Both the position numbers and the translations under genes were made by a program. Shown here piece after piece: positions 7,255-12,992 of a DNA stretch of 64,000 nucleotides. The notes beneath the pieces were generated by a model. It searched no databases. It was given only the letters and a program-made list of their open reading frames with translations, and was not told where the DNA came from. Numbering within the stretch: the first letter of the stretch is position 1; each line of letters starts with the position of its first letter. The stretch covers positions 310,001-374,000 of the forward strand of contig BCIG01000008.1 in the NCBI GenBank assembly GCA_001599915.1, written 5' to 3'. The stretch is from Symbiotaphrina buchneri (lineage: Eukaryota; Ascomycota; Symbiotaphrinales; Symbiotaphrinaceae).

Positions 7255-8496
7255 CGAGGTGACCTTCTCGGGATACACCTTCAGATCTGGCCTAGACATC
7301 GGTTGATCCAATTCGGGGAAGTTTCGAAGATCCAGTCGTCCTCAGAATATGACGTGGTTATCCCCCTGACTGCGAAACCTGATCAGCAGAGCAAGGAGGA
7401 TCAGTTTCCATTCACTTGCAAGCACCTTGCCGTCGTCATGGTTGTGGTTAGGTTATTGCATAGAGAAGATACCTGGCCTCAAGTTGACTTGGCGATCCAG
7501 ATCGCGCAGGACTGCAAGGCAGTAACAGATCGAACAGGCCTGTAAGGTGAGCAGAAAATCATCATCGACCACATAACATCGGGGGAGGACTGCGAAGGAG
7601 AACCCCCATCTAATTGGATTCGTGCCTGACTATAGTGCCGTAGCAGAGAAAAGGCTGTAGTGATGTGCGGTCCCAAGTTATCAGAATCCCTGCCAGGGTG
7701 CACGGTCACTTGCACCCTCTCCCGCTTTGACACGCTCGGTTTGGGACGATTTCCACCAGGTTGTTGACGGCAAAGTGTCAAGGCCAACGCGCCAGTTCGA
7801 AGGGAGTCAATACTCCGATCTTCCACCCTCAGATAGTCCGAGGCTGTCTGTCATTGAAGTCCCGGCGCAATAGCTTAGAGCAAGGTATCATGTGCGATTT
7901 TTACCAGAGGGCTCGAAAGGGAAGTGTTTCTGATTCATCTTACAAATTCCAATTTTGGATAGGGGCCGATATACGGAGTAATTCCCGTCATGTTTTTCCG
8001 CCTTTTCTTTGATTGGCATCCGGTCGCTGCCAATCGACTTTAGCTCAACGCTTGGCATCACTCTGCATGCCTGCGCCAGCTTGGTTGGCATTTAGGCTAT
8101 CTGTGCTTTTTAAATAATTGGTTGGCTTGGCCTTGGCCCTGGGGCAGTCCCTGGACACTTTGTAACTCCATCGTCGTCTCCAACAATCTCCACCACGGCA
8201 GCGGATACTCGCTCCATTGACATTTCATCCTTCTCGAGTCTATCTATTTTCTGCCTACCGCTTCTCGCTCCAAACCGTGCGCTCTTAGCCATCCTCAGCC
8301 CGCCTTACGAGTCTGTTGGTCCACCCACCTGTTATCCACGATTGCTCCAGACGGTTACCATATCTGTGCCGCAAGCTCACGTCACCCTGGCGCCGAGCCC
8401 ACTTCTGCCCCGCCTGATCGATGTGTTTATCCCCGGGCGGGCTGAAATACCCTAACTTGTCAGCGCGCCTGGTCTGTCTTCTTACGGCAGCTAAAC
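7255..8496. other. Intergenic region upstream of the kinase gene
   Basis: No coding or RNA gene recognised. The last 400 bases are pyrimidine-rich (many CTCC and TCTC runs) and end in AAACATGGC, a good fungal start context, so they are probably promoter and 5' leader of the kinase gene. Confidence 0.4.
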
Positions 8497-10459
8497 ATGG
8501 CTTCTGGGAAGATGTCACCCATTCGCAGGGATGGCGAGACTCGACACCAGCCGGCAGATGCAGATAGCGAGAACTTTCGAGCGCTAAATGCAGCGGCCCG
8601 CAGGTGGAACGCTTCGATATCGTCGGCAGGAGGATCTGAAGCAGACTGCGGCTCTGCAACATCGCCGGATCATCCCCAGGGTCGAGCTCCTTCCACCGCC
8701 GGCCTCCATCTGGACACAGGTGTGATCCCAAGTTCAACTGTAGCACCGACGAACGAAGGAGCAACCTTCAACGCTGGTCCCCCGAACCAGTCTGCAGATG
8801 AATCAGATCCCAGATCATCGATGCCCGTCCGGTCAATAACCGCGAACACCTTGTCACCCTCATCTGCACGATCATCGCCTGGCTTAGGCCCTATGGTCGA
8901 TTTGACCCCATTGCCGTCGCCTCTTGGGCACGGTGACTCCCTCAATCCTTGGGCTCGAAATGGTTCATTTATATCGATGGCAGAAGCAATGGAAGCGCCT
9001 GCGGGCCATTCTGCTGACACAATCACGGCTCATAAGAAAAAGACCTACCGTTCCTTGATATCTCAGTCGCCCTTTCCTGTCATGTCTGGGGCTCCGTAAG
9101 GACACTCCCGAAGCCGGAGCATCAGCGATTATGTGCCTGAAGGGCTCCAAGTTCCAAAACCTCGAATTATAGCCGTTTCTGTCGCTGGCACCCCCGATGC
9201 GACATCTGCAAGAGACATGCTACCCGATCCGCACATGCATAGAGAAGAGCATTTGCGCATAGGGACCCGTCTAACATCCACCGATGGGCAACCGCCTACT
9301 CCACCTGCAAGTACAAGGGGAGGTGTGGAAAGCGATGACAATGAAGAGCTGACAAAGAGAGATTCTGACTCCAGATCCTCAAAGCGTCGTCGATTCGAGT
9401 ATTTCGAAGCGAAAACTATCAAGGACCAAAAACTCAGAAGATGGAAGTATGTTCGCGAACTGGGTCAGGGCACTTTCAGCAAGGTGATTTTGGCGGCTTT
9501 GCAGGGTCCTGTGGATGATGAAGAAGTATTGGACGAGACTCGCTTGGACCCCAAGACACTTGTTGCCGTCAAGATCATCGAACATGGCCCGGCAGGCGGA
9601 GCAGACGGAGAGCGGGTTGAGGTATCACTCCAGAGGGAGCTGGATATCTTGAAATCCTTACGACACCCGTCGATAATACATCTAAAAGCATGCAGCATTG
9701 AAATATCCCGAGCATTGCTTGTGCTGACGTATTGTCCTGGGGGTGACCTATTCGACGTCGCTAGTCAACGACACGAGATACTCGTTCCTGGCCTTGTCAG
9801 AAGGATTTTCGCCGAGTTGGTGAGCGCGGTAATGTATCTACATTCACAGCATATTGTCCACCGAGATATAAAGCTAGAAAGTAGGTCCTGCGTTCCTGCA
9901 CCTATTCCTACTCACCAGCCTAATTGGAACCATAGATGTTCTTCTTAATCTACGGCCGAAAGCCGTCGCCACTATCTCCGACTGGCAGCGCTATCCCAGC
10001 TCAGTCTGCACCTTGACCGACTTGGGGCTTTCACGGCGAATCGACCCAGCCTCCCCGCTCCTGACCACCCGGTGTGGTTCCGAGGATTATGCAGCTCCTG
10101 AGATCCTTATGGGTCAGTCATATGACGGGAGGGCGACGGATGCGTGGGCGCTTGGGGTACTCCTTTACGCTCTCATGGAAGGGAGGCTCCCATTTGACCC
10201 TGTTGCGGGCGACAGAGGCAAGAGCCGTACTGCTCATAGGGTGGCGAGAGTCGAATGGCGATGGGTGAAGTTTTGTGATGATGACGGTGAGCCAATGGCA
10301 GACTTCGGAGAGTACCAACCGGCACGGGAAATCGTGGAATCTCTGTTGAAAAGGGCGCGATCGCGAACGAGCCTTGAAACGGTTGGGGCCTCGGACTGGG
10401 TAAAAGGGGGTATACAGCTACCTGGAGGCTTGAAGGTCTGGGAGGAAGACGATCTATAA
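8497..10459 (+). CDS. Ser/Thr protein kinase, reading frame interrupted by an in-frame TAA
   Basis: A protein kinase with a long disordered N-terminus (Ser/Pro-rich) and a C-terminal catalytic domain from about residue 317. Visible motifs are ELGQGTFSKVILA (Gly loop), VAVKII (ATP lysine), HRDIKLEN (catalytic loop), TDLGLSRRI (DLG instead of DFG), YAAPEIL and DAWALGVLLYALMEG. Exons 8497-9880 and 9936-10459 flank a 55-base intron that splits the Asn codon of HRDIKLEN. A TAA at 9097-9099 interrupts exon 1, yet the same frame continues at once with GHSRSRSISDYVPEG, which looks coding. A 30-base intron (9096-9125) would keep phase but lacks a branch site and is unusually short. Translation could restart at the ATG at 9217, leaving the kinase domain whole. 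I cannot name the subfamily; the loop motifs suggest CAMK-like. Confidence 0.8.
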
Positions 10460-10995: not shown

Positions 10996-12992
10996 ATGCT
11001 CTTCCCACGGACGATACATCGGGCCTCTGCCTTGAGGTCAAATTCTCTCCGAGTTCAATCTGCGTACGCTCCCCTCCTGGTACGAATGACTCCTGCTGCT
11101 ATCGCTGCTGACCTGAGAATTCCCCCACTGAAGCCGCTACATTTCCAAAACGCACATCTCTCGAAAAGATGGAGAAGCCCAGCTCAATACAGTCAGCAAG
11201 ACCATTACACAACCGAAGTCCCAAGGAGCATCACAGGCTATGCTCTACGCAACAGGAATGTCTCCCGAGGACATGAACAAGGCTCAGGTCGGCATTTCGT
11301 CTGTGTGGTTCACCGGGAATCCTTGTAACATGCATCTCTTGGGATTGAGCAATAAAGTCAGAGAAGGGGTGCAGAAAGCCGGTCTTATCGGCCATCAATT
11401 CAATACCATCGGAGTCAGCGATGGCATATCTATGGGCACGATTGGGATGCGGTATAGTCTGCAAAGCCGTGATATCATCGCCGACTCGATTGAAACGGTC
11501 ATGGGTGGGCAATGGTACGATGCCAACATCTCTATACCTGGGTGCGACAAGAATATGCCAGGAGTTGTCATGGCGATGGGTCGTGTGAACCGACCCAGTC
11601 TGATGGTCTACGGTGGCACCATCAAACCTGGCTGCGCGGCAACGCTCCAAAACGCGGATATCGATCTTGTGTCAGCGTTTCAGGCGTATGGTCAGTTCAT
11701 AACGGGCGAAATCAACGAAGAGACGAGGTTCGATATCATTAGGCACGCATGTCCTGGCCAGGGTGCCTGTGGGGGCATGTATACCGCCAACACGATGGCC
11801 TCGGCCCTGGAAATAATGGGAATCACCCTCCCTGGCTCCTCCTCGAACCCGGCCGACTCGAAAGCCAAAGTTCTGGAGTGTATGGCGGCTGGTGGAGCCA
11901 TCAAAAACTTACTTGTACAAGACATTCGCCCGCGAGATATCTTGACCCGGCAAGCGTTCGAGAATGCCATGGTCCTTATCACTATCACAGGCGGATCAAC
12001 CAACGCCGTGCTCCATCTTATTGCGATTGCGGACTCCGTTGGCGTTAAGCTCACGATAGACGACTTCCAGGCCGTTAGCGACCGGACGCCCTTCCTCGCG
12101 GACTTGAAGCCTTCTGGGAAATATGTCATGGCCGACCTTCACAACATTGGCGGAACACCTGCATTGATCAAATTCCTTCTGAAAGAGGGGCTCGTTGACG
12201 GCGGTGGCATGACCGTGACCGGGAAGACCTTGAAGGAGAATGTGAAAGACTTCCCGGATTTCCCCAATGATCAACAGATCATTCGACCCCTCAGCAATCC
12301 AATCAAGGAGACCGGGCACCTCCAGATCCTGCGCGGATCCTTAGCGCCTGGAGGATCTGTAGGGAAAATCACGGGGAAAGAAGGTACACGCTTCGTTGGT
12401 AAAGCTAGGGTTTTCGACGCCGAAGACGATTTCATCACAGCGCTTGAGCAGGGCGAGCTTAAGAAAGGCGAGAAGACAGTGGTGGTAATCCGATATGAAG
12501 GCCCCAAGGGGGGACCTGGCATGCCAGGTAGACCCCCCTCTCTCCCCCTCATTTGGTGCGATAGCTTGCTAATCCCGCTGTCATCTAGAAATGTTGAAGC
12601 CTTCAAGCGCAATTATGGGAGCTGGACTTGGACAAGATGTTGCCTTGATCACTGATGGCCGTTTCAGCGGAGGCTCTCATGGATTCTTGATCGGGCATAT
12701 TGTACCCGAAGCGCAAGAGGGCGGCCCTATCGGGCTCATCAAGGACGGGGACGAAATCGTCATCGACTCCGAGACTAACAAACTTGATTTGAACGTTCCG
12801 GAGGCAGAGTTGACGGAAAGAAGGAAACTCTGGACGGCACCCAAGCTGAAGTATCAAAAGGGGACATTGTACAAATACGCCAAGTATGTTATCCGCTCTG
12901 AGTTTGTTATTTCCTTTCATGGTGGATTGCTAATCGTAACTCTGTACAGGTTGGTCACGGATGCGAGTCACGGATGCGTGACTGACGCTTAA
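10996..12992 (+). CDS. ilv3: Dihydroxy-acid dehydratase (mitochondrial, branched-chain amino acid synthesis)
   Basis: Ilv3 dehydrates 2,3-dihydroxy-isovalerate and -methylvalerate to the keto acids that yield valine and isoleucine; it is a mitochondrial Fe-S enzyme. Exons 10996-11063, 11134-12527, 12589-12883 and 12950-12992 give 599 aa, the family length. Cluster-ligand regions PGCDKNMPG and [15 protein letters not shown] and the start block [18 protein letters not shown] are intact. The second intron splits [18 protein letters not shown]. The N-terminus is Arg/Ser-rich without acids, a mitochondrial presequence. The first intron (GTACGC, branch CTGAC, acceptor GAAG) is my choice among few phase-compatible options and is less sure. 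The last exon adds only 14 residues (plus stop). It converges on the acyltransferase gene. Confidence 0.95.

Follow-up and report, generated by a model that had tools for sequence, protein, structure and literature searches.

Does the TAA codon at positions 9097-9099 interrupt a single protein kinase gene, and if so, is it a mutated or miscalled base, part of an intron, a stop that is read through or edited, or the border to a shortened or a neighbouring gene? The window, i.e. the whole stretch of 64,000 nucleotides of Symbiotaphrina buchneri DNA that was analysed, contains this codon in frame between an ATG at 8497 and the reading frame of a kinase domain. All features of the gene lie on the plus strand.

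A kinase gene with an in-frame stop codon

The upstream frame extends from stop to stop over 8446-9099, and the same frame resumes directly as 9100-9948. The 5' coding part, from the ATG to the last sense codon before the TAA (8497-9096), comprises 200 stop-free codons and has the start context AAAC-ATG-G. No Pfam match was obtained for it, and its low content of hydrophobic residues suggests that it is probably a disordered tail. A 48-codon frame (8421-8567), opened by an ATG further upstream, overlaps the start of the kinase in a different frame; translation from 8497 might be reduced if the transcript begins before that ATG.

Downstream of the stop the frame is open as far as the kinase domain. 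The N-lobe and the start of the C-lobe, including the HRDIK motif, are encoded at 9451-9880; the Pfam family Pkinase matched residues 118-260 of the piece that starts at 9100 (E 1.6e-21). An intron of 55 nt (9881-9935, GTAGGT...CTAAT...ATAG) separates this piece from the second one (9936-10459, Pkinase E 2.8e-17), which contains the remainder of the domain with the DLG and APE motifs and the C-terminus with the stop codon. The profile of the eukaryotic protein kinases (PF00069) covers both lobes, and the catalytic motifs HRDIK, DLG and APE are present; judged from its sequence, the gene is predicted to encode a serine/threonine kinase with an intact-looking domain. According to the alignment, DLG at 10019-10027 replaces the usual DFG motif. 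The claim of a preceding sequence-only reading that an in-frame TAA splits a kinase gene, the frame of which resumes at once, was thus borne out by the sequence, the frames and the Pkinase matches.

An in-frame stop was therefore found 5' of a conserved domain, with coding-like sequence on either side. The kinase domain, of which both Pfam pieces match strongly, showed neither further frame breaks nor lost catalytic motifs. An old, decayed pseudogene was rejected, because both kinase pieces are open and matching and have kept HRD, DLG and APE.

As far as searched, the kinase locus is single-copy. A DNA query of 401 bases over the stop site had one match in the 23.4-Mb genome (82 contigs), which was the site itself. 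The protein search of the same genome listed 21 kinase matches including the query; none of the others is a close copy, the nearest being 42% identical over 111 residues. A scan of viral contigs yielded six pattern stretches and no relative, and 97 pattern stretches in prokaryotic genome contigs included one relative, which is bacterial and 27% identical, and no fungal relative. Six variants of a tail peptide were not found in the literature text.

Coding character around the stop and frequency of such splits

The sequence following the stop was scored with a phased Markov model of order 2, which had been trained on 95 long frames. The stretch 9100-9374, which is stop-free and is also the body of an intron candidate of 279 nt, scored 17.4, and the mean of coding windows was 17.3 (n = 318). 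None of 62 noncoding windows reached this value, nor did any reach the scores at orders 3 and 4 (14.0 and 5.2); these windows were defined as being devoid of any frame of at least 80 codons, and therefore they carry stop penalties by construction. When the right frame was scored against the wrong ones with stops skipped, the true frame of this stretch reached 11.9, the other forward frames -0.8 and -13.5, and the reverse frames -7.4 to -8.8. The 91 residues after the stop contain no Cys, Trp or Phe, and their hydrophobic fraction is 0.19. Among overlapping wrong-frame segments of coding regions, 184 of 2705 were stop-free, 133 of 2705 had an equally low hydrophobicity, and four matched both measures; for overlapping noncoding segments the latter two counts were two and zero of 556. 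By several measures, the stretch 9100-9374 as a whole looks coding.

The 39 codons that directly follow the stop (9100-9216) have a weak coding signal when taken alone. Their codon score was -0.9, a value which 29% of the off-frame windows reached, and 15.5% of the in-frame windows scored no higher. The Markov scores at orders 2, 3 and 4 were 4.7, 1.0 and -3.9, and the right-versus-wrong-frame score was 1.5, compared with 1.9 in another frame. The earlier statement that the composition continues unchanged across the stop hence applies to 9100-9374, but not to its first 39 codons on their own, and these count against a premature stop as the explanation.

This weak stretch lies just between the stop and an in-frame ATG at 9217-9219, a candidate start which is read from the sequence only. 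It could be expected if the TAA were fixed and harmless and a transcript starting downstream used the ATG at 9217, or the next in-frame ATG at 9235, to make a shortened kinase, so that the 5' frame would be a relic. The kinase domain is intact and the ATG at 9217 has a purine at -3, in agreement with such an arrangement. However, over its 200 codons the 5' frame has stayed free of a second stop and has a coding-like score, and thus it is not visibly decayed. The ATG at 8497 is in a strong start context, and therefore 9217 would be hard to reach on the same message. A shortened kinase is accordingly regarded as unlikely.

The 5' part itself was also scored: its own frame reached 13.5 and the other forward frames -18.6 and -11.9; one reverse frame scored higher (16.9), but it holds four stops. 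Two unrelated neighbours might have been envisaged at this site, with the 5' frame being a separate short gene or a chance frame and the kinase gene beginning later. The 5' part lacks a Pfam match, and the longest chance frames in simulated sequence of the same composition were 213-263 codons per 264 kb. Against this stand the identical frame, the absence of any gap, the similar tail-like composition on either side and the gene-start context at 8497, which leave this arrangement hardly credible.

How unusual such a split is was estimated in 264 kb, made up of the window and a further 200 kb from its contig. Pairs of same-frame neighbours with 100 or more codons on each side of one stop occurred 37 times, compared with 6-8 times in five Markov simulations of the same length. 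These counts include antisense frames and neighbouring genes, and therefore they represent an upper limit on true splits. In 18 of the 37 pairs, including the kinase site, both flanks looked coding, and nine of these 18 had no in-phase intron candidate of 40-300 nt with a score of at least 14.4, which is the score of an intron in a gene of the SMC family. The kinase site is not among the nine, because its 279-nt candidate scores 16.8. Three of the 37 pairs had 200 or more codons on each side, namely those at the kinase site, in the SMC-family gene, where the split looks like an ordinary intron, and at a site near C8:166434. By this coarse same-frame measure, the kinase site is unusual, but not unique.

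The SMC-family gene (SMC hinge E 5.2e-34, SMC_N just below the cut-off) appears to be split by an intron of 51 nt on the minus strand (GTTAGT...CTAAT...TTTAG, from 46832 to 46782). At the site near C8:166434, also on the minus strand (L020), a TGA separates 532 and 207 codons in the same frame; the best in-phase intron score was 12.1, and the downstream coding score was low (1.6). The ribosomal protein L3 piece of the genome scored highest, at about 460 bits, against three chains from Neurospora crassa (7r81) and Chaetomium thermophilum (8oo0 and 7olc), and no more than 405 bits against the others among the 58 sequences listed, which makes the fungus a probable member of the Pezizomycotina. 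Another locus (L037, C16:20694-21077) showed a second, weaker match to ribosomal L3, and we presume that it perhaps encodes the mitochondrial ribosomal protein L3.

Intron candidates at the stop codon

Introns located between pairs of long frames in the same 264 kb served as reference. Seven of 32 candidates were left out, as they scored under 3.9 or were longer than 90 nt, and the 25 retained introns were 45-87 nt long; their branches read CTRAY or TTGAT, and they end in CAG or TAG. Their total scores were 17.4-29.1 on a model built from themselves; the 55-nt intron of the kinase gene belongs to this set, with a total of 19.7. The model is strict, as the best intron of the SMC-family gene, which is outside the set, reached only 14.4; its donor type GTTAGT is absent among the 25 reference donors.

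The TAA would be removed by 64 in-phase GT-AG choices of 18-300 nt, in disagreement with the former assertion that only a 30-base intron keeps phase. The best total among the 64 was 2.7, and no ordinary short intron (45-87 nt, donor, CTRAY branch, YAG) fits at the stop, an absence already noted in the sequence-only reading. Three candidates were rejected individually. The 30-nt intron at 9096-9125, formerly listed as an ultra-short option, is shorter than all 25 reference introns and combines a weak acceptor with the lack of a good branch site (total -0.4). The 51-nt intron at 9050-9100 has the donor GTTCCT (total 1.7), and the 117-nt intron at 9096-9212, which has that best total of 2.7, has an AAG acceptor and no CTRAY.

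The exclusion of normal-size introns had overlooked a longer in-phase candidate of 279 nt at 9096-9374, the donor-like hexamer of which (GTAAGG, 9096-9101) holds the TAA itself. It has a CTGAC branch 21 nt before its end and a CCAG acceptor, which ranks first among the 12 in-phase acceptors available to this donor as far as 9456. Without the length term, its signals sum up to 16.8, at the low edge of the reference introns (16.4-26.6), making it the only stop-removing candidate with signals within their range. Because the SMC-family intron scores lower (14.4), the signal sum alone does not rule it out, and a retained phase-2 intron would be expected to show just such a TAA within GTAAG. In a control for chance, an in-phase acceptor and branch at least as good were found within 360 nt for eight of the 146 donor-like sites that lie in open frames of 250 or more codons, and the presence of such a partner here counts against a mere premature stop. 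It could be a true long intron or a former exon that was intronized by the change that made the stop.

Several observations weaken this candidate. With a score of 4.5, the GTAAGG donor is below all 25 reference donors (5.8-11.2), none of which has this sequence. The length is more than three times that of the longest reference intron, though the reference set was cut at 90 nt, and with the length term the total drops to -5.0. Furthermore, splicing would remove coding-like sequence. In a looser scan, 23 of 49 intron candidates were at least 90 nt long and seven of these 250-400 nt, all of them putative, so that long introns may exist in this genome; at least one of the long candidates is false, since it combines the donor of the 55-nt kinase intron with an acceptor at a distance of 214 nt. 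Intronization is also rare in a fungal survey, which covered 28,256 introns of four Cryptococcus species and described five cases (PMC2740785). Use of the 279-nt intron is therefore rather improbable.

The birth of an intron at this site would be a special case. One change would have made both the in-frame TAA and the GTAAG donor, and a pre-existing CTGAC...CCAG would let the cell splice out the 279 nt in phase. The equivalent of 93 codons would then be removed and the kinase rescued without part of its tail, while unspliced messages would be truncated. This scenario is considered quite improbable. If the intron were used, stop and splice donor would have arisen together, and an exon-derived origin of an intron could be tested in one gene.

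Readings of the stop codon and known systems

A coding-like frame that runs on through a stop might also be expressed by programmed readthrough or by A-to-I editing that corrects the stop, both of which would yield the full protein. Stage-specific A-to-I editing in some Pezizomycotina corrects the kinase gene PUK1, and UAG and UAA stop codons are both described as frequently edited (PMC11156358). According to the same source, however, correction acts on UAG to give UGG, and a single edit of UAA gives UGA, which is still a stop. For readthrough, the order UGA, then UAG and UAA is given (PMC12233894, 2025), and in Ustilago maydis readthrough is efficient at UGA CU(A) and drops when UAA takes the place of UGA (PMC4207609). 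The context here is UAA GGA, and not the fungal UGA CU(A) context compared in that work. No significant fold was detected in 9100-9200, 3' of the stop (z 0.92 versus shuffles), though such a structure is not always required for readthrough, or around the stop (z 0.14 versus shuffles). Readthrough, which had been one of the options listed previously, is disfavoured by the UAA followed by G and the absence of a significant downstream fold, and rescue of the protein by either route appears very remote.

The neighbouring gene for dihydroxy-acid dehydratase bears on the genetic code. It ends in a TAA (12990-12992) after the C-terminal ...DASHGCVTD, and this C-terminus matches residues 546-557 of a solved chain of 560 residues. 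TAA thus ends the dehydratase at its expected C-terminus, and on the evidence of this one gene the code is unchanged.

The locus is probably best explained as a kinase gene that is intact apart from one premature stop, which stems either from a nonsense mutation that arose recently in this strain or from an incorrect base in the assembly. This explanation is preferred because it accounts with the fewest assumptions for a frame that is open, a composition that resembles coding sequence and a domain that looks intact. Point mutation and assembly error had been among five unranked options of the sequence-only reading, and they fit best. The original frame would have led from the ATG at 8497 to 9880, across the 55-nt intron and on to 10459 as one protein kinase gene, and the TAA would interrupt an N-terminal tail that is itself probably disordered. 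Provided that the base is correct, the regular message would yield a tail fragment of 200 residues without the kinase domain and would probably be a target of nonsense-mediated decay, and the full-length kinase would be absent or much reduced. The recent origin of the stop, a mutation or an error as its cause, the loss of the product and the decay of the message are what we infer from the structure of the gene. The donor-like hexamer around the TAA is the one observation that a premature stop leaves to chance. Taken together, the stop most likely goes back to a random mutation or a sequencing error, and a new mechanism is less likely. If the case is this ordinary one, annotation should retain a single gene model with a flag on the base, and should not predict two genes or a tiny intron.

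Comparison with known systems places the locus as follows. The best matches of the kinase among solved structures are MELK, SNF1-related and MARK-type kinases, with which it has the kinase domain motifs in common, while it differs by DLG instead of DFG and by its long N-terminal tail. Like PUK1 of Fusarium graminearum, it is a kinase gene with an in-frame stop, in a fungus that probably also belongs to the Pezizomycotina; in PUK1, TAGTAG is converted to TGGTGG, whereas here a single TAA lies in the N-terminal tail (PMC11156358). The frame is open past the stop as in the fungal UGA CU(A) readthrough genes, but stop and context are different, and the extensions described for those genes carry a C-terminal peroxisomal signal and not a whole kinase domain (PMC4207609). 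As in the reported intronization of exonic sequence (PMC2740785), a splice-like donor, branch and acceptor lie in phase within coding-like sequence; compared with those cases, the donor of this putative intron is weak and its length unusual. Although the sense state of the codon is here deduced from one sequence, the locus shares with a nonsense allele or a miscalled stop in a single fungal gene the one in-frame stop, the otherwise open frame and the intact-looking domain.
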